This document shows positions 30,547 to 58,345 of a stretch of 64,000 nucleotides of DNA, piece by piece. Origin of the DNA: Venturia oleaginea. Lineage: Eukaryota > Ascomycota > Dothideomycetes > Venturiales > Venturiaceae. The stretch's first letter is position 1. The number at the start of each line of letters is the position of its first letter. The DNA lies in assembly GCA_013176395.1 (NCBI GenBank), contig JABMLP010000025.1, positions 62,001-126,000 on the forward strand. Reading direction: 5' to 3'. The notes below the pieces were generated by a model that saw only the letters and a list, made by a program, of their open reading frames with translations, had not been told where the DNA came from and searched no databases. A program made the position numbers and the translations under genes.

Positions 30547-31650
30547 GTGTACTTGATGCGTAGCAACAGTACCCTATCGACTCCTACAACCTACACCCCT
30601 ACTACCGACGACGACCCAATCGCGAGCATTACGCAAGGAATCGACAAACTCTCAATGGCTCGAGCAAATTCGCCTGACACCGTACAACAATTGGTGGCAG
30701 CTCTGACCGCAGTCAGTGTTGATGGGAACACCGGTGCAAAAGCTATTGCATGGCCTAAATGGGACGGGAAAAGAGACAACTACACGCTGTTCAGATGGCA
30801 GATCAAGACAAAAATCACTGTTGAAAATGGGAAGCTTGGAAGCAATCAAGGAATATGCGCGAACATCTTCAACGGGCTTCCGACAGAGAAACAACAACGC
30901 GTCATCCAATGGCTAAGCAATGGAGAGCAACATGACAACTACGAACCCGAGTCCTTTATCAAGCATATGGACGACAAGTTCTTAGATCATGAAGCGGAAG
31001 CTAAAGCTCTCGACGAGCTGAACAAGATTAGCCAAGGCAGCAGACAACCGTTCGAAGACTTCCGCCAGCAGTTCGAACAACTGACATCGCAAGCTGGATC
31101 CCTAGCGCCGCAAAGAGCCTCAAAGATCACTATCATGAACAACGCGCTCAACTACTCCCTCCAACAGACCTTGAAATCAGTGCGATTGTCCAGGGACGAC
31201 TACGACACTTACGTAAAAGATGTACAGTACTTCGCGACGAAGACAGAGGCTCTATTCCACCAACGCCGCTATCCAAGTACGGATAAGGAGACGCCAACGA
31301 CTCGAGGGAGGCCACAATCACCCCAAACAGTCAGTCGTGACGCAGAAGGCGATGTCGAAATGACTGGCATCAACGCCCTTTCAGCGCAGATCGCAGCACT
31401 GATAGCTCGGGTCGATACACTCGGAAAGGATGCGAAGAAGGACCGACGACCTAGAGCGAAATGGCGATCCCAAACAGAGTTCTTGGCACTTATACAAGCG
31501 GGCAAATGCGGGCGCTGTAAGAAGCCCAAGCACCACCCGAACGTATGCGAATTCCGACCAGCAACACGTCCAAAGACTCAGGTCACTGCGGTAATCACAC
31601 AGCATACCGATGACTCCCTACAGGAAGCCTCATCAGAGTCGGAAAACTAG
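30547..31650 (+). CDS. Gag polyprotein of the chromovirus
   Basis: 367 aa at most by open frame. The first ATG in frame may be a few codons inside, since the open frame begins at a non-ATG codon; MARANSPD or an earlier Met is possible. It has a capsid-like helical region (FRWQIKTKI; QRVIQWLS; FIKHMDDKFLD) and one CCHC zinc knuckle of the form C-x2-C-x4-H-x4-C (CGRCKKPKHHPNVC) near the C-terminus. Ends with TAG at 31648-31650, preceded by GGAAAAC, a possible -1 slip site. Confidence 0.88.
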   Translation: MYLMRSNSTLSTPTTYTPTTDDDPIASITQGIDKLSMARANSPDTVQQLVAALTAVSVDGNTGAKAIAWPKWDGKRDNYTLFRWQIKTKITVENGKLGSNQGICANIFNGLPTEKQQRVIQWLSNGEQHDNYEPESFIKHMDDKFLDHEAEAKALDELNKISQGSRQPFEDFRQQFEQLTSQAGSLAPQRASKITIMNNALNYSLQQTLKSVRLSRDDYDTYVKDVQYFATKTEALFHQRRYPSTDKETPTTRGRPQSPQTVSRDAEGDVEMTGINALSAQIAALIARVDTLGKDAKKDRRPRAKWRSQTEFLALIQAGKCGRCKKPKHHPNVCEFRPATRPKTQVTAVITQHTDDSLQEASSESEN

Positions 31651-34600
31651 CTACCCTTGTGCATCGTCGCGCACGAGGGTCTGAAGTAGATGTACATGGC
31701 GAAGACATTACAAAGCTACCAGGCATAAGAGAAATCAAAGCAGCAAAGGATAGGATGGAAAGTACACCCTTCTTGATAGATACCTTGATCAATGGAACTT
31801 CTTTCACCGAATCCTTCTTTGATAACGGCTGCCTCCCTTATGCTGCTTTCAGCGAGAAGAGTGTCCAAACACATCGTCTACCGCGCATCCCAATTGACAC
31901 CAAACAATTGGCACTGGCTAAAGAGAGCCACGAGAACGGAGAAGACCTCCGTATTACGCACATGACCTACGCTACGATCGACATTGATGGTCGAGCAGAG
32001 CGAGTCTATGGGTATATAGTGAAAGGATTGAGCTTCCCTATTATCCTAGGCAAGGCATGGGCAGAGAGAAACTGGGTGCGATATATAGCAGCTAAGAGAA
32101 AGCTGCTTATTGGTCAAGGATCCCAGCGCATCACGGTAAGAGAAAAGGGGTGGCTAGAACAGAACACCAAAGCGCGAGACCGGCTCGCTCACGTGCGGGC
32201 GGCTTGTCTAGTGTCAGGATCTGTATTTGCAGCTATTGTTGGAAGGGCCCAGCGACGGTTGAGAAGAGATGGACCGGATGGTACACAAGTGCTGGCTATC
32301 TCGATGTCGGATATCAACAAGGCCCTAAGCAAGTTAGCAGAAAGAAAACAGAGAAAGACTGAGGAAGAAATCCGACAAGAGATACCAGAAGAAATAGCAG
32401 AGCATGCTGATGCCTTTCTCGACGACGAAGACGGAGAGATCGCGCCCCATCAAGAGGGTCGCGATCACGTTATCGAATTGATACGAGATGAACAAGGTCG
32501 CGAGGCAGAAGTTCCTTGGGGCCCATTATACGGCATGTCGAGGGAAGAGCTATTAGTCCTACGAAAAACACTTTCGGACTATATGGACAAGGGCTGGATA
32601 CGCGCCAGCAACTCACCAGCGGCAGCCCCAGTCTTATTTGTAAGGAAACCAGGTGGAGGTATTCGGATGTGTGTAGACTATCGGGCACTGAATCGAATCA
32701 CTCGATCGGACCGCTACCCATTGCCACTAATCCGAGAAACCCTACGAAATCTAGCAACAGCGCGTTGGTACACCAAACTTGACGTCAGAGCGGCATTTCA
32801 TCGGCTCCGCATCAAGCACGGCGATGAGTGGAAAACGGCTTTTCGCACTCGATTTGGACTATTCGAATGGCTAGTTACCCCCTTCGGACTAGCTGGCGCA
32901 CCCGCGAGCTTTCAACGATACATCAACGGAGTCCTACGGGAATCCCTAGATATCTGCTGTTCAGCCTACATGGACGATGTCTTGATATGGAGCGACGGCG
33001 ACTATCTGGATCACATGGTTAAGGTTAACCAAATTCTTGCCAAGCTCAAGACTGCTGGACTTCGGCTAGACTTAAGCAAGTGCGAGTTTGCTGTTCAGGA
33101 GGTCAAATATCTGGGGTTCATTATCACTGCAGGAGAAGGGATCAAAGTCGACCCAGAGAAAGTTGCCGCGATTAAAGAATGGGAGGCTCCAGTCAATGTC
33201 ACAGGCGTACGCTCCTTCCTAGGCTTTGCAAATTTCTACCGAGACTTCATCGACAACTTCTCAGAGCTCTCCGACCCCTTAATCAAGTTAACACGGAAGG
33301 CCGTCGCTTTTGTCTGGAACAAAGAACATGAGAACGCCTTTCAAGTCTTGAAGGAGCTATTCATCTCCGCCCCAATACTGGCTCACTGGAATCCAGACCT
33401 GGATACGGTACTCGAGTGCGACTGCTCTGGCTACGCGCTGGGAGGCACGTTGTCGCAGAAGGATATGAAAGGAAAACTACGACCAGTAGCATACTTCTCC
33501 CGCAAGCTCACTGCGGCTGAATGTAACTACGAGATCCACGATAAAGAATTACTGGCAGTAATCAAGTCCATTGAACACTGGAGAGGAGAACTACGCAGTG
33601 TTGCAGCACCTTTCAAAGTCCTTACCGATCACAAGAATCTCCGCTACTTTATGACAGCGCAGCGTTTGTCAGAGAGACAAGCAAGATGGTCGCTAATTCT
33701 ATCTGAGTACCAATTCCAGCTGGAATTTCGCGCCGGAAAACTAGCGCAAAGACCAGACGCACTATCAAGAAGACATCAAGATATGCCACATGACAAGAAC
33801 GACGAGAGACTACAAGGGCGAGTGGCCCAGTTGATCAAGGACGAATGGCTTCCTCCTCTTTCCGAGAGGACGACCGAAACAATCGCAATACAAGCCCTTA
33901 TCTGCCCAGTCAATACACCGAATACATCCAATAGTACATGGGACGTTATACGGGAGCCCCAGCAAAATACTGGACTGGACGGTCGACACCAGCTGACTGC
34001 CGAAAACGGTCAACACCGGTCCACTACTAGGTACGGTCAAAACCGGTCAGTTGCAAAAGGATGCGATCTTTTCGAGAAACCAGAGTTACAACTTCTCTGG
34101 GATCGCGCAATAGCAGAGGACCAATCCTACGAAGCTATTCATACGGCTATAGTTACTGGCGAACGTTCCTTTCCTCCAGAGCTCAAGTTGTCGGTACAGC
34201 TACCCGAATGCGAAGTAGACGACCACGGCGCGGTCACGAGAAGAGGGATCCTATGGGTACCAGATTGGGAACCGCTGCGAACAACGCTGGTCCAACAAAC
34301 TCACGATTCCCATGTTACTGGACACCCAGGGAGAGATAGCACGCTTGCGATTCTATCCAGAAGTTTCTTTTGGCCCCAACAATACAAGACAGTCCGGCAG
34401 TTTGTACGTAATTGCGACGTATGTGGGAGAACAGGAATATGGCGTGATAAGAAGCGAGGTCTTCTGAAACCACTTCCAATCCCGGCCCGCTTCCACAGCG
34501 AGCTATCAATCGATTTCATGACTGATTTGCCCGCGGAGGAAAACGGCCCAAAATACCTCATGGTTATCACAGATCGCCTCCTCAAAAGTGTTACGTTGGA

Positions 34601-35735
34601 GGCTATGACTACAATGAGCGCCAAAGAGTGCGCGAAAAGGTTCTTACAATGCCACTATCGCTACCACGGATTTCCCATGGCATTGACGTCGGACAGAGGC
34701 AGCAATTGGACAGGTCGTTTTTGGAGGAAGCTTTGCGAACTTACAAAGATTGAGCAGAGACTCTCTACAGCCTTTCATCCACAGACTGATGGCGCGACCG
34801 AGCGCATGAACCAGGAAGTTCTACGCTATCTCCGCGCCTTCATCGCATACTCCCAACTAGACTGGCCAACGCTACTACCTACGGCTATGTTAGCACTGAA
34901 CAATCGTGACTCTTCAGTCACAGGGATGAGTCCATTCTATCTAACCCACGGCTACCATGCGGAACCAATCCAGAAAGTACAACGAATCTCACCCAGTAAC
35001 TCACCAACAGCCGATGCCGAGACCTTTGTGCAACGAATAGAAGAGGCACAAGAATATGCACAGGCAGCGATGGCCTGGTCCCAGCAGAAGATGGAGAACG
35101 ACGCCAACAGGTCACGTCAAGCTGCCGAAACGTTAAAAAAGGGCGACAAAGTCTGGTTGAACCTTAGGAATATCAATACTCCGCAGCTATCAAAGAAACT
35201 GTCGTGGACGCAAGCCAAATACACTGTCGAGAACCAGATCTCCCCGATGGTATACGAGCTGGCTGACCTGCCAAGTGGTATCCATAACCGTTTCCACGTT
35301 GACCTACTCCGCCGAGCCGCAACCGACACACTGCCCTCACAAGAATCCGATGATACCCAGCCGCCACCATTAGTGCCTCAAACCGAAGAAACAGAGGCTG
35401 AGTTTGAAGTAGAACGTATACTTCGCGCAGAGAAGAAACGGGTTGGGCGAGGCTGGGTTCGTCAGTTATTAATCAAATGGAAAGGCTATGCAGATCCCGA
35501 TTGGCAGCCACGTTCATTATTCACAGAAGTCGAGGACTTAGACCGCTTCGAGGCAGAGTATGGCAAGGGCGACGGTGTCGGCGAAGATATAGGAGCTCAA
35601 ACAGGGGCCCGAAGAAACCGAGTAGCGGTGGCCAGCGCCTTCGAATCTGCTACAAGCTGGCAGAAGCGATGTATGGCGTTTGTCTGTTTGATTATCCCAC
35701 CTACCACACCCTCTTTAGTCCTGCACACCCGGTAA
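31614..35735 (+). CDS. Pol polyprotein with chromodomain
   Basis: Open from 31614 (after a TGA at 31611) with no early ATG, so expression by -1 frameshift from gag is likely. Domain order: aspartic protease-like segment with DNGC in place of the usual DTG/DSG; reverse transcriptase with YMDD at 32967-32978; RNase H (CDCSGYALGG, HDKELLAV, TDHKNLRYF); integrase HHCC zinc domain and D-D-E core (SIDFMTDLP; TSDRGSNWTG; NQEVLRY); and a chromodomain at about 35400-35560 (EVERILRAEKK; LIKWKGYADPDWQP). The chromodomain is expected to guide integration to modified chromatin. Confidence 0.93.
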   Translation, partial: LPTGSLIRVGKLATLVHRRARGSEVDVHGEDITKLPGIREIKAAKDRMESTPFLIDTLINGTSFTESFFDNGCLPYAAFSEKSVQTHRLPRIPIDTKQLALAKESHENGEDLRITHMTYATIDIDGRAERVYGYIVKGLSFPIILGKAWAERNWVRYIAAKRKLLIGQGSQRITVREKGWLEQNTKARDRLAHVRAACLVSGSVFAAIVGRAQRRLRRDGPDGTQVLAISMSDINKALSKLAERKQRKTEEEIRQEIPEEIAEHADAFLDDEDGEIAPHQEGRDHVIELIRDEQGREAEVPWGPLYGMSREELLVLRKTLSDYMDKGWIRASNSPAAAPVLFVRKPGGGIRMCVDYRALNRITRSDRYPLPLIRETLRNLATARWYTKLDVRAAFHRLRIKHGDEWKTAFRTRFGLFEWLVTPFGLAGAPASFQRYINGVLRESLDICCSAYMDDVLIWSDGDYLDHMVKVNQILAKLKTAGLRLDLSKCEFAVQEVKYLGFIITAGEGIKVDPEKVAAIKEWEAPVNVTGVRSFLGFANFYRDFIDNFSELSDPLIKLTRKAVAFVWNKEHENAFQVLKELFISAPILAHWNPDLDTVLECDCSGYALGGTLSQKDMKGKLRPVAYFSRKLTAAECNYEIHDKELLAVIKSIEHWRGELRSVAAPFKVLTDHKNLRYFMTAQRLSERQARWSLILSEYQFQLEFRAGKLAQRPDALSRRHQDMPHDKNDERLQGRVAQLIKDEWLPPLSERTTETIAIQALICPVNTPNTSNSTWDVIREPQQNTGLDGRHQLTAENGQHRSTTRYGQNRSVAKGCDLFEKPELQLLWDRAIAEDQSYEAIHTAIVTGERSFPPELKLSVQLPECEVDDHGAVTRRGILWVPDWEPLRTTLVQQTHDSHVTGHPGRDSTLAILSRSFFWPQQYKTVRQFVRNCDVCGRTGIWRDKKRGLLKPLPIPARFHSELSIDFMTDLPAEENGPKYLMVITDRLLKSVTLEAMTTMSAKECAKRFLQCHYRYHGFPMALTSDRGSNWTGRFWRKLCELTKIEQRLSTAFHPQTDGATERMNQEVLRYLRAFIAYSQLDWPTLLPTAMLALNNRDSSVTGMSPFYLTHGYHAEPIQKVQRISPSNSPTADAETFVQRIEEAQEYAQAAMAWSQQKMENDANRSRQAAETLKKGDKVWLNLRNINTPQLSKKLSWTQAKYTVENQISPMVYELADLPSGIHNRFHVDLLRRAATDTLPSQESDDTQPPPLVPQTEETEAEFEVERILRAEKKRVGRGWVRQLLIKWKGYADPDWQPRSLFTEVEDLDRFEAEYGKGDGVGEDIGAQTGARRNRVAVASAFESATSWQKRCMAFVCLIIPPTTPSLVLHTR

Positions 35736-44995: not shown

Positions 44996-45136
44996 GGCCG
45001 GGTGGCCTAATGGTAGGATATTTATTCTCTCCAAGCTCAGCAACTATCGACTGACTGACTGACTGCTGACGATGCCCATAGGTAAGGCGTTGCTTTCCGG
45101 TGGCAAAGATTGCGGGTTCGAGTCCCGTCCTGGTCG
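44996..45136 (+). tRNA. tRNA-Arg(CCG) with a 69-nt insertion in the D-loop
   Basis: Removing 69 nt leaves a 72-nt cloverleaf. The acceptor stem pairs GGCCGGG with CCTGGTC (two G-T pairs). The D-stem pairs GCCT with AGGC around loop AATGGTA. The anticodon arm is TTGCT-TTCCGGT-GGCAA with anticodon CCG at 45097-45099. The variable loop is AGATT and the T arm is GCGGG-TTCGAGT-CCCGT; the discriminator is G. The A box (TGGCCTAATGG, 45003-45013) and B box (GGTTCGAGTCC) are intact, and a T6 run follows. No 37/38 intron is needed. Loss of function through the insertion is the alternative reading. Confidence 0.85.
45013..45081 (+). other. Spliceosomal-type intron candidate inside the tRNA D-loop
   Basis: 69 nt beginning GTAGGA and ending CCCATAG. 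A CTGAC branch-like site lies at 45066-45070, its A 12 nt before the 3' G, as in fungal mRNA introns. GGTA occurs at both edges (45012-45015 and 45081-45084), so the exact ends are ambiguous by up to four bases, but one placement gives GT-AG. The insert contains (GACT)n. The normal tRNA intron position, 37/38, is not used. Confidence 0.6.
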
Positions 45137-45142
45137 TGGCTC

Positions 45143-45148
45143 TTTTTT
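45143..45148 (+). terminator. Pol III terminator (T6)
   Basis: TTTTTT seven bases after the tRNA discriminator base, the normal RNA polymerase III stop signal. Confidence 0.8.
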
Positions 45149-53055: not shown

Positions 53056-56000
53056 CTACCACAAATACTCCGCCCTAACCATCAACACCTGCTCCCCAAA
53101 TCCCCTCCCTTCCTGCCACTTCTTCATCGCTCTATCATGCCAGGGAAACGGCCTTCCATGCCATTGCAACGCAAACCTCTTCGCCTCCTCCACAGTCTCA
53201 AAGCTCAAAATCCACCTCTGCCCATACGTAGGCGTCTTAGCTCTATCCCGCACCGTCCTCTTCCTCTTACCGCTCTCAGCCTCCAACCCACTCAGCGCAT
53301 CCATCTCTTCATTCTCAAAGCCCCTGTCAAACAGCGGTGCCTCCACCTTCTGCTTCGGATTCCTCATATCAACCTTCCTGATCGCCGATTCACCCGGAAT
53401 CAATTTCCATTCCAGACCCCGTCGTGTGCCATCGAGATGGACGGCGTCGCCGATTTCGAAGTAAGAAGGTTGTCTGCCTTCCAAGAACACCAAGAGAACT
53501 TGCGCCACGCCCTCTCTGCCTCCACCCAAAATCTGCGCATAGCCACCGCGTGTGAAAATACTCTGCTGCAACGGTGTAAAAGGCGGCACCAGATATTGCA
53601 AGAACAATTTTTGCTGTGGTGGAATAAGAGCATAACTCTGAACTAGGCCTGACACATCCTCGCCATTGATGATGTAACCAGGTGGCGGTGCGATCTCAGA
53701 AGTCAAGGAGGTGGGTGTGTGTTGTTTAGCTAGATCGTGAACATGAGAGACGTGTTGCTTGTAAGCCTTGGCATCTTCCTCATTGTTGAAGACAATGTAA
53801 TAATTTCCAGTTTGTTCCAAAGTCCAGGGATCGCGTTTTGGGATGACTTTGACGAATTCACCTCGCTGCGTCCATTCTTGCATGTGAAGTCCACGAGGAA
53901 TGAGACAGCGGAAATCCTCTTCGCTTAATGATTTGCTTGCGTAGCGAAGCTCCAGGACAGTGGGCTTTGGTGTCAGATCCGAGCCTTTCGCTCTCACCCG
54001 TCTTACTAGGCCAAGCCCTGTTGACTGTCGCCGCTCTGCCCCAGTGTCATCGATCGGCGTCAGCGGTACATGAGGGATTGGAATACGTGCGGGCGACCCT
54101 GTATCTTCTATGAGCTCTTCCGCCATAACTCCCTTCGTCTCTTCGGGGAACAGCTCTGCCAGAAGTGACTGGGACGTTTGGTATTGCACAGCCTGAGGGG
54201 TTGCCTTGGAAGCATTATTTGGGGAATCTTTTTCAGGTGGGTACATTTCGTAAGAGATTTTGAGTGGCGCTTCAGGGACGTCGGGAGCTTCGGGCGGGGC
54301 AGTTTTGGTCATCTTTTCTGACTCATTTGGACTTGCCGAAGGTGTCTCTATTTCGGTTCCGGCGGTGGGCTTTTCGACAGGTGCTGCGGGTGCTGAACCA
54401 TCAGCAAGAAGGCCGGCTTTCATGGACGCTAGCATTGGAGGTCCGCAATATGTCCCAGGTATTGCCATTTGCTGAAAAATGAGGCCGCGTATCAGATCCT
54501 TCAATTCTATTACCTGTTTTCTCAAGTCGGAAATGGCTGCTGAATCCGAACTGACTGGCTGGTTGAATTGGCTTGCTGATACTTGAGAGCCGAGTATTGG
54601 GGATCCCGCGCTCTCAAAAGGTACACGACTCGTCTTTGATGGTATCATGTCTTCCACAACATCGCCCAGGTCCTGCCCGCTCCATTCAGACTCTCGAGCT
54701 CCTTTCATCTGGATGTGGCGGTCCAATGGCAAGGGCGGTTCGGGGACATTGAGGACTTTCCTGCTAATGACAGGCGAATGGGGTGATCTGACATCCGTTT
54801 GTGGTTGCGTAGAATTTCCCGTTTTATCAAGGCTCTGAGCTTCCTTCGATTGTAAATACTTGTCCTTTGCATCTTTTCTCCGCGCGTGGTCAATTAGTTG
54901 CTGGTCGTTGTTACCGTCGCAAATGACGGTTCTAATGAAACCATTGATGTGTCTGGGGAGATGATCATTTGCAATTTTGTCTTCCACACCCGCGCGTGCA
55001 GTTGAAGGCTGCGCATCGCTATCACCGGGGCCCTCCCGCACATGATGTTCATGAGAAAACGCAGCATTTTCTCTGCCAGAGTTTGTTGAATATGAAGAAG
55101 CCTTGAACGACTGCTCGAGCCTTTCTATTTCTTCTTCAATCATGTCACTAGATGTATCCCGGGACGCTTCAAACAATTTGCTTCGCAAAGCAGCAAGACG
55201 TTGATGTAGTGCATCGGCGTCTGAAGGCTGAAGGGATGATGAGGGGGTAGCTGACGCTCGCCCCGCAGCCTTCGCAGCATCGTGGGTGTTCGGTTCGAAT
55301 GATGCCGGGTTCTCAACGACTTGGAAAAACTCGTCAAGGGCCGCTACGCGTTGTGCATGCTTGGGATATTGGAGGGCCTTACTAGGTTCCAGTGATTGCC
55401 CTTTCAACTTGTTTCGTAGCTTGGATAGACTCATCAAAACGGAAGGGCTTATATCTCTCTCCCACTGCTCAGAGAGGTTCGATTTTAGGCGGTCGTAAGC
55501 TCTGCATATACGATCGTCCAAACCAATTTCCCATAAACGTCGAATATGACTCAGCAGAACAGACAGACCTACTACACGAATGCTGAGCTCAAGCTTCTCT
55601 TTGATAAGTGCCGAATGGTCAAGCTCATCTGTTGTACCCAAACCTTGCTCAATCAGCTCCAGTCTGTCGAGAGAGAGGCGACGTAGATCGTACATCGGCA
55701 CATGTTCCATCCATTGAATCTTTGCGGGAAGATGAGAGGAGAAGTCGGCGAAAAGGCCTTCATGAGTTGTGGCAAGTATCTGTGTCCGGTATGTAAGGTA
55801 TGACCGAGAAATGCTTTCCTGTGTTTTTGCAGACTGTCCTCGAAGCACTGCTTCCTTTGAAGTTCGATAGAATTCACTGATCTGGCTTATTTCCACAGCG
55901 CTGAGCCCGGAGAGTCGAGCTTGCCACTCGAGAATAGGTTGTTCAAGACTCCGACACCAGCTCTTGATGATAGCTCTCTTCGTTTTGGACAAAGATTTGG

Positions 56001-56833
56001 TAGATGTGATTGAATTGAACGTGTTCTGCACAGAATAAACGACACCACTTCTGGCCGAGCTGAAATGGAGCGGATCCATCCTGATAGGGTCCACCTTCGG
56101 CCATCTTGCTGCAATGAAAGCGACCTCCGTCCCTAACAGCAGTCTCCGGTATTCGGTATATGCGGCATGAATGTCGTTTTTAGCGGAAGGTCTGCAGGCT
56201 TTGAAATCGTTGATAATTTCTTGCACGCCCGGTGGGATATCAGTCTGCGGCGGCGACTGACCTCGACGATGAGAGACTGGCAACGTCTGTGACCAGTGTC
56301 AACAACAACATAAAACGGGTTACATTGAGGAGCATTTGGCTTACAAGGACTGTCTCTTCAGAGCCTGTATTGCGTCCCCCAGATGTGCGGTTTCTTAGAG
56401 ACAAATCATGACTTGCTTCCTCACTGTCTTTCTCGTTGACCTCTGGCTTCTTTGAATTCTCCATGCCCTCATGCTCAGCAGGTGTTTCATTTCGCATATC
56501 TTCTTGCCCATCAAATCTCTGGATGTCGAGCCCCTCGTCAATCCCCATCCCGTTCTCGATTCCAAGCTCTTTCCCACTCCCTCGGCCATGTCCCACCAAC
56601 AACGCAGAGGGTTTAATCACCCCTTGTAATGGAATCGTATGTTGTGAGGAACTCGTTGAAATCTGTTCCCATTGCGCGCGACAGGCTATGCTATGAAAGC
56701 TTTTAAAAGCAACAGGTCTCAGCTCCCCTGGAAGTTGAAGAATAGCGCGAAGGTAACGGGGCGGAAGCGGTTGCAAGGCCCATGATGTGTGTGTTCGGAA
56801 TGGCGGTATGGGAACCCGCGCTGGTGGCATCAA
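53056..56833 (-). CDS. Large conserved-looking protein of unknown function
   Basis: Exons 56833-56345 and 56286-53056 (58-nt intron, GTAAGC...CACAG) give 1239 aa. I do not recognise the family. The N-terminus is basic and Pro-rich without early acids (MPPARVPIPPFRTHTSWAL), compatible with a mitochondrial presequence. Residues about 190-470 look folded and helical (AYTEYRRLLLGTEVAFIAARWP; AIIKSWCRSLEQPILEW). A long disordered Ser/Pro/Glu region follows. The C-terminal 280 residues contain a possible RRM-like segment (LELRYASKSLSEEDFRCLI; NYYIVFNNEEDAKAYKQHV) and a second block (LEGRQPSYFEIGDAVHLDGT; RWILSFETVEEAKRFALQWH). The last may also be RRM-like, suggesting RNA binding. ATG at 56833 was chosen because the frame upstream begins with a non-ATG codon. 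Confidence 0.7.
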
Positions 56834-56946: not shown

Positions 56947-58345
56947 CTCAAATCTGACTGCGCAGGGCGCTCGGACCCACCATCCCATCTCAATTTCCAC
57001 GTATACACACCAACTTATCGCTCAATTTACCACCACCATGGCGCCTAGAACACCCAAAAGAAAGACTGCAAGGCGAGAATATGGCACTACGAAGAGATTG
57101 CGATTTTTTCAGGCCTGGGATTGCAAGAATGAGGCCGACGGCGTCGGTACAATCGCATACCTCCCTGAAATCAATATACCAACTTCTACCGCACGTAGTT
57201 GGCTTAAACTACGAGAACTTATTGGTGATGCAGCATTCAGATCACAGAGAAAGAGCAGTTGCATCATAGGGCGGCCTACCAAAGTATCTGCTTCAGATCT
57301 TACCCGCCTTACGAACCAAGAAGACCCCATACACGAAAAAGGCTGGCAGGAACAAGCCAATTCCTGCCTCGGCAAGCCTTCCGCAAAGACATTACAGCGT
57401 CACGTATACAATGCAGGGGCTAGGCGGTTCAAGAAGCGTTATTAGAAGCAGATATCCCATGCAAATCGGCCAAAGAGGGTTGAATACGGTAAAGAACACG
57501 AGAAAAAGACCATACTAGGCTTCTGGAGTCGGATTTGGCTCACAGATGAAGCCCATTTTCAGTCCAAAGAACTCGCCAATGCACCTGAATATAAGCTACG
57601 CTTTCCAGGGCAAGAGAGAGGTGTTAATGAGGAGCTAGAAGGCGTTTTGGATGTTACTATTCACGTCGCCGGCGGCATCTCATACAACAAGAAAGGAAAC
57701 CTCATATTCTACAAGGATCCGGCTGAGCCATCAGAGAAGGTCCGTAGGCAAGTCAAGTAGCCTAAACAACTCAAATACGAGCTGGATTCAGTGTACCAAG
57801 CCCGACTGAAGGTCTGGCAAGACCTTAAGGCAAAGGAGGACGAAACACCAAAAGGAAACTGCATGACACAGGTTTTCTACGCCAAAAAGATACTGCCGCA
57901 ACACATTGAAGCTATTCAGGCCTTGGAGAAGCGTCACCAGCGCAAATACTGGCTTCCAGAGGATGGTGATCCTTCTCACGGAATCAAGTCACCTAACAGT
58001 GACCCTGCAGTCATAAAAAGAGAAGCAGACCTTCTATTACTTATTCACCCTCCTCAATCATGTGATCTCAATCCCATTGAGTCTTGTTGGAACATCATTA
58101 AGTCCAGATTAGCTGGCAGGAGGTGGTCGTCGGTGGCTCATTTCAAGGCTGAAATCCAGGCAGAATGGGACAAGATAACGCTCACAATGATACGGAAAGG
58201 GATCAGAGAGATGCCAGAGAGATGTAAGATAATTCAGCAAAAACTAGAGATCCATTGCAAGTCAAACGTGTGGTAAATAGCATAATACATTCAAGTTCAA
58301 AAGATGGGATGGTGGGTCCGAGCGCCCTGCGCAGTCAGATTTGAG
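56947..58345 (+). mobile_element. Tc1/mariner-like transposon, 44-bp perfect TIRs
   Basis: 56947-56990 and 58302-58345 are identical inverted repeats over 44 nt (CTCAAATCTGACTGCGCAGG, continuing to CATCCCATCT). About 1.4 kb in all. The target duplication is not clear next to these cores, so the true ends may extend a few bases outward. It encloses one transposase frame with two in-frame stops and lies between two genes without disrupting them. Confidence 0.85.
57038..58276 (+). pseudogene. Tc1/mariner-like transposase with two in-frame TAGs
   Basis: One frame from ATG 57038 to TAA 58276 (413 codons), interrupted only by TAG at 57443-57445 and 57758-57760. It has an N-terminal helix-turn-helix-like region (TARSWLKLRELIGD; KPSAKTLQRHVYNAG). 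The DDE_3-type catalytic motifs are RIWLTDEAHFQS (first Asp), LPEDGDPSHG (second Asp) and PPQSCDLNPIESCWNIIK (third acidic residue). Each TAG could come from CAG by one C-to-T change. No frameshift is seen, so inactivation appears recent. Confidence 0.85.

Follow-up and report, generated by a model that had tools for sequence, protein, structure and literature searches.

A probable spliceosomal-type intron in the D-loop of a tRNA-Arg(CCG) gene of Venturia oleaginea, with comparable inserts in at least nine further tRNA genes of this fungus

The stretch of DNA analysed here (the window, 64,000 nucleotides, C18:62001-126000) belongs to an assembly of 46.08 Mb in 61 contigs and holds a tRNA-Arg(CCG) gene that is interrupted in its D-loop (Table 1). 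The original prediction had placed a 69-nt insert in this gene, and its coordinates and sequence agree with our own reading. As it also proposed, taking out the 69 nt restores a tRNA of 72 nt, which ARAGORN calls as Arg(ccg) and in which 21 of 21 stem pairs (7 + 4 + 5 + 5) can form. The A and B boxes it described as intact are both readable, by eye and against the box consensuses, the A box being unbroken on the DNA because the intron starts with a G. The T6 terminator is present, and the insert does sit away from the canonical 37/38 site. With a cloverleaf, both boxes (read in the manner just given) and a terminator all found, the gene has the appearance of a complete cytosolic tRNA-Arg(CCG) gene.

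Table 1. The interrupted tRNA-Arg(CCG) gene in window coordinates, and the tRNA positions of inserts found outside 37/38 across the genome.
Feature	Position	Strand	Remarks
tRNA-Arg(CCG) gene, exons and intron	44996-45136	+	141 nt, mature 72 nt; ARAGORN Arg(ccg) on joined exons
Exon 1	44996-45012	+	5' strands of acceptor and D stem, with positions 8-9 between them; D-loop through G18
A box TGGCCTAATGG	45003-45013	+	read by eye against the consensus TRGYNNARNGG
GT-AG intron, 69 nt, tRNA position 18/19	45013-45081	+	sole GT-AG of five equivalent placements
5' splice site GTAGGA, weak	45013-45018	+	2.8 bits (PWM); first G doubles as A-box G19
Predicted branch site CTGAC	45066-45070	+	A at 45069, 12 nt from 3' end
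3' splice site TAG	45079-45081	+	sequence
Exon 2	45082-45136	+	remaining D-loop, anticodon and T arms, 3' strand of the acceptor, discriminator G
Anticodon CCG	45097-45099	+	sequence, ARAGORN
B box GGTTCGAGTCC	45115-45125	+	read by eye against the consensus
T6, presumed Pol III terminator	45143-45148	+	sequence; longest T run of the intron is 3
Insert outside 37/38, Arg(CCG), window	tRNA 18/19
Insert outside 37/38, Ala(TGC) L112	tRNA 13/14
Inserts outside 37/38, Arg(TCT) L049 and L111	tRNA 53/54
Inserts outside 37/38, Ser(AGA) L050, L055 and L110; Ser(GCT) L052; Gly(CCC) L056	tRNA 52/53
Insert outside 37/38, Ser(GCT) L058	tRNA 57/58

Shorter deletions in the D-loop also satisfy cloverleaf pairing, the top rows of the scan being of 66-67 nt, and the length of 69 nt is set by the D-loop AATGGTA, which is present in three other nuclear Arg genes. 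Of the 39 deletions of 60-74 nt in which the D stem is preserved and the loop measures 7-10 nt, a single one has GT-AG ends, and it is the 69-nt one. The GT...AG ends put forward in the original prediction therefore stand in one placement, but the 5' splice site is weak, its score lying at the low end of the 2.3-9.5 bits seen for mRNA introns of the same genome. The CTGAC that was named as a branch-like site is likewise present at the distance given for it, but it sits in a short CTGA tandem that yields four CTGAC copies, and since 27% of dinucleotide shuffles of this intron also produce a CTRAY at 9-19 nt, the branch site taken alone is weak evidence. The window feature exceeds chance because the same pattern recurs in nine further tRNA genes.

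An ARAGORN scan of 4230 deletions returned many different tRNA calls and was too permissive to serve as a control, and strict pairing was used instead. Minimum-energy folding returned the cloverleaf for the joined Arg(TCT) exons and not for those of Arg(CCG), and was for that reason kept out of the evidence. For the unspliced gene ARAGORN offered a tRNA-Glu(ctc) with a 47-nt intron, a candidate that we rejected because its D stem is poor and its variable arm long; run with the bacterial code, it called no tRNA in the window. The Rfam scan of the window at gathering cut-offs gave a tRNA match only, to the 3' part of the gene (30.7 bits), and no group I or group II ribozyme core. Self-splicing introns of these two groups have known sizes far above 69 nt. 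Elsewhere in the window, LTR-retrotransposon-type ORFs occupy 30547-35735, with reverse transcriptase, RNase H and integrase domains in 31614-35735, a DDE transposase-type ORF (PF13358) lies at 57761-58276, and the ORF at 53056-56298 on the minus strand has a Venturia inaequalis homolog with 61% identity among the four homologs found.

An Rfam tRNA search of the assembly gave at least 62 places, with 63 of 1697 candidates scored. We set aside 15 clustered, organelle-like places on C38 (one of which, L021, is an Arg(TCT)), two on C58 and two Ile-like ones on C19 and C60, leaving at least 43 nuclear places, among which L041 and L048 are degenerate-looking Met genes. The two places on C58 (L022 and L023) are the same tRNA-Arg(TCG) twice in opposite orientation with AT-rich flanks, and this contig of 18,945 bases is perhaps an organelle plasmid or an inverted repeat. 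The two Ile-like tRNAs (L053 near the end of C19, and L054) are identical, as are their near flanks, and resemble part of a repeat. A DNA search with joined mature tRNAs gave at least 12 further places (40 of 72 candidates scored), three of which were read. Over the resulting 55 nuclear tRNA places this incomplete census resolved at least ten inserts of 49-89 nt outside 37/38. Isotypes missing among the nuclear places found include Pro, most Leu, Glu, Cys, Tyr and Trp, so the real total of tRNA genes, and perhaps of introns, is larger. Querying with yeast tRNAs produced no candidates, an uninformative outcome, and a B-box pattern matched 318 times as against 443 for its reversed control.

For each of the ten inserts, that of the window included, just one of the placements restoring the tRNA has GT-AG ends, an outcome with a chance of about 4e-20 if ends were random. 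All ten also contain a CTRAY whose A stands 10-18 nt from the 3' end, where dinucleotide shuffling expects 0.87 of ten at 9-19 nt; the same motif, with its A at 9-19 nt, is found in 13 of 13 mRNA introns of the genome. These 13 introns, from actin, beta-tubulin and two H4 genes with bounds set by the proteins, served as our reference and supplied the scoring matrix, each being left out in turn when it was itself scored. Matrix totals were 12.7-22.2 for the ten tRNA inserts and 14.3-23.2 for the mRNA introns, as opposed to -5.0 to -12.4 for the three canonical tRNA introns with a length of 25 nt or more. The window intron, at 15.3, is among the weaker scorers, and the lowest total, that of Ser(AGA) L050, falls under the lowest mRNA intron. 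At the 5' splice site, eight of the other nine inserts reach 6.4-9.7 bits and L050 has 1.5, while the 3' end is AAG in two of the ten (L052 and L055) as compared with YAG in every mRNA intron of the reference. None of 20 canonical 37/38 introns of the genome is GT-AG; one of these 20, a 3-nt "intron" in Leu(TAA) L025, is probably a length-prior artefact. The signal statistics were computed on the first nine inserts and repeated with ten (Ala added) and with eleven. What had been proposed for one gene, a spliceosomal-type intron away from the canonical tRNA site, is thus matched at the sequence level by ten GT-AG inserts with a branch motif outside 37/38.

Gly(CCC) L056 (C10:933823-934004) combines a 21-nt intron at 37/38 with an 89-nt GT-AG intron in the T arm, and Ala(TGC) L112 has a 37/38 intron besides its GT-AG insert. 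An eleventh case, kept outside the counts, is probable in the Arg(TCG) gene L057/L064 (C45:1547090), where a 56-nt GT-AG insert lies at 59/60 in the T-loop, again in addition to a 37/38 intron. It has a CTGAC 9 nt from the insert end and its removal would restore an Arg(tcg) cloverleaf; its exon 2 was chosen by pairing alone, G-U pairs make up four of the seven in the acceptor stem, a partner is found in 255 of 2000 shuffles of the downstream DNA, and its matrix score of 10.1 is the lowest of all.

The longest T run across all ten inserts is 3, and Pol III termination inside them is unlikely for this reason. Most inserts lie between the A and B boxes, as canonical introns do. Judged by eye against the box consensuses, eight of the ten genes keep both boxes readable on the DNA; by the same reading the B box is split in L058 and the A box in L112. 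At 18/19 the G of the GT serves as G19, and at 52/53 and 53/54 the G of the AG serves as G52 or G53.

One could suppose that the inserts mark dead tRNA copies and are never removed from RNA, with intact copies elsewhere serving translation. Insert-free paralogs do exist: with its intron taken out, Ser(AGA) L050 is identical to the uninterrupted L014 at 81 of 81 positions, Ala(TGC) L112 equals L033 at 72 of 72 once all introns, the canonical ones too, are removed, Ser(AGA) L055 and L034 show 3 differences in 81, and for Ser(GCT) an insert-free gene, L019, was found. Some intron-bearing copies have one or few unusual exon changes, with stem mismatches in L110, one T-stem mismatch in L058 and, in the second Arg(TCT) gene L111 (C20:147032-147158), an A in place of the near-universal T at position 33, and some of these copies may be decaying. 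The census is moreover incomplete, as the shares of candidates scored indicate, and the DNA searches would pick up no more than close copies of Arg(TCT), Arg(CCG) and Gly(CCC). However, random insertion would not yield GT-AG ends and a branch site in ten of ten cases, and the close-copy DNA searches found no uninterrupted nuclear gene for any of these three tRNAs: for Arg(TCT) (2 candidates) they returned the split genes L049 and L111 and nothing else, and for Gly(CCC) (1 candidate) one gene. The original prediction had asked for a count of Arg(CCG) genes, and at this sensitivity the search of the assembly (1 candidate) returned the window gene alone. AGA and CGG codons are in use, since they occur 57 and 30 times among the 3855 codons of five window ORFs; CGG might also be decoded by Arg(TCG), whose sole representative among the nuclear places is L057, itself probably split.

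The two Arg(TCT) genes also speak against dead copies. They share the insertion site, and their exons are identical at 71 of 72 positions, while their intron interiors show no likeness beyond that of shuffles (829 of 1000 shuffles reach an equal or higher score), which places the exons under constraint. Constrained exons, free interiors and kept signals together are the pattern that working introns would be expected to leave. The exact identity of exons between paralogs with and without an insert indicates, further, that introns were gained or lost precisely. We consider the dead-copy explanation improbable, and the reading of the inserts as working introns is retained.

Another way to remove such inserts would be that of archaea and red algae, in which the endonuclease cuts at a bulge-helix-bulge and tRNA ligase joins the exons. 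Non-canonical tRNA introns of this kind are described for Cyanidioschyzon merolae in the passages of PMC4090602 drawn on here, and canonical 37/38 introns are abundant in the present genome, hence the endonuclease is presumably present. Against this, none of the ten inserts can form a central helix of four pairs. The best reach three of four (L056 and L058), neither with both side helices, and the window insert reaches two of four. The test is a simple pairing rule that most canonical introns fail too, with four of four central pairs in those of L046 and L056 only. The GT-AG ends and the branch motif would also be left without explanation, and we regard endonuclease cleavage of these inserts as very unlikely.

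About equally little weight falls on a mobile element or introner that left a short GGTA target duplication and has no splicing function of its own. The original prediction had noted a GGTA repeat at both edges of the window insert and allowed for a transposition-like insertion; the repeat is there, but the transposition-like reading seems hardly credible to us. It is true that short repeats flank most inserts, nine of the ten having two or more equivalent placements. Flanking repeats are, however, what insertion at AG/GT-like sites yields, and GGTA at both edges would be the expected product of insertion at a G/GT-type site. In a joined genome query, seven of seven introns, that of the window among them (L110, L111 and L112 left out), matched themselves only, so that at this sensitivity a recent family with many copies is absent. 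An origin of this sort would in any case still be compatible with removal by the spliceosome.

The U6 genes, which the original prediction had cited from some fungi as a precedent, provide one in the same genome. At least seven U6 places scored over the cut-off (47 of 2907 candidates scored), and each of the six full-length genes (L073-L078) has at least one spliceosomal-type intron, at three or more sites; the seventh place, L079, resembles a 3' fragment. L078 has two introns, and that of L075 is GC-AG with a CTRAY 32 nt from its end. The joined exons of L073-L076 and L078 give a U6-like RNA, L077 having been judged by eye, and matrix totals of the U6 introns are 15.3-22.5. For 5S rRNA, no intron-sized insert was found in at least 33 places over the cut-off, which span 106-121 nt (47 of 2145 candidates scored). 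It follows that introns are not general to Pol III genes, or that 5S does not tolerate them.

Taken together, we think it very probable that the insert in tRNA-Arg(CCG), a gene transcribed by Pol III, represents a U2-type spliceosomal intron, one of at least ten in tRNA genes here, and that it is removed by the spliceosome. The intact A and B boxes would recruit Pol III, with the first G of the intron replacing G19. In the primary transcript the D arm could not form properly before the intron is gone, and the spliceosome would excise it as a lariat through the branch A at 45069, joining G18 to G19. RNase P, RNase Z and CCA addition would then complete the tRNA. Because the D or T arms cannot form properly any earlier, removal by the spliceosome would probably precede end maturation. 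Gly(CCC) and Ala(TGC), each with a 37/38 intron and a GT-AG intron, would need two splicing machines, the tRNA endonuclease presumably removing the second, 37/38 intron as usual.

Spliceosomal introns in non-coding RNA genes are not without parallel. They reportedly occur in ascomycete rDNA and in the U2 snRNA of Rhodotorula, which are other genes than those considered here and are transcribed by polymerases different from that of tRNA genes. The canonical nuclear tRNA introns resemble the present inserts in lying between the A and B boxes and differ from them in position, ends and size. The U6 introns of S. pombe and other fungi share with ours a small Pol III RNA as host, GT-AG ends and a fungal-type branch site, although U6 is the spliceosome's own catalytic RNA and tRNAs stand outside the spliceosome. 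Passages of PMC10484740 state that the mRNA-type intron of fission yeast U6 is spliced and relate a proposal that it was inserted by reverse splicing near catalytic nucleotides. The introns of fungal U3 snoRNA, in the portion of PMC5832005 used here, have GT-AG ends, RCTRAY and a branch-to-acceptor distance of 6-36 nt; their host too is a small structured RNA, but not a tRNA. The same portion of that 2017 paper names U3 and U6 as the sole small structured RNAs known to be often interrupted. Non-canonical introns of archaea and C. merolae also lie outside 37/38 and are, in the case of C. merolae, tied to bulge-helix-bulge motifs (passages of PMC4090602 and PMC8450103), which by our simple test are absent here, spliceosomal signals being found instead. 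Passages of PMC8450103 limit eukaryotic tRNA genes to one intron and describe the search for non-canonical introns for archaea. We found no report of spliceosomal introns in tRNA genes in the open-access papers searched, a scope that excludes subscription papers and preprints.

The prevailing view is that nuclear tRNA introns are the business of the endonuclease, at one site and one per gene. Judging from the sequences, it is likely that in this fungus the spliceosome acts as a second general tRNA-processing machine, required before several cytosolic tRNAs can exist. Among these would be Arg(TCT) and Arg(CCG), for which the nuclear genes found are all split, and decoding of AGA would consequently depend on mRNA splicing. 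It is part of the same reading that Pol III genes (tRNA and U6, apparently not 5S) have been colonised repeatedly, often where the terminal G of the intron rebuilds an A or B box. If this is true, tRNA supply is coupled to mRNA splicing, and the substrates of splicing can include a Pol III transcript of about 140 nt. Annotation that seeks non-canonical tRNA introns with archaeal models, as in the passages of PMC8450103 used here, would then be blind to them in fungi. The pairs of paralogs with identical exons that differ in having or lacking the intron, together with U6 copies whose introns lie at differing sites, offer a test bed for intron gain.
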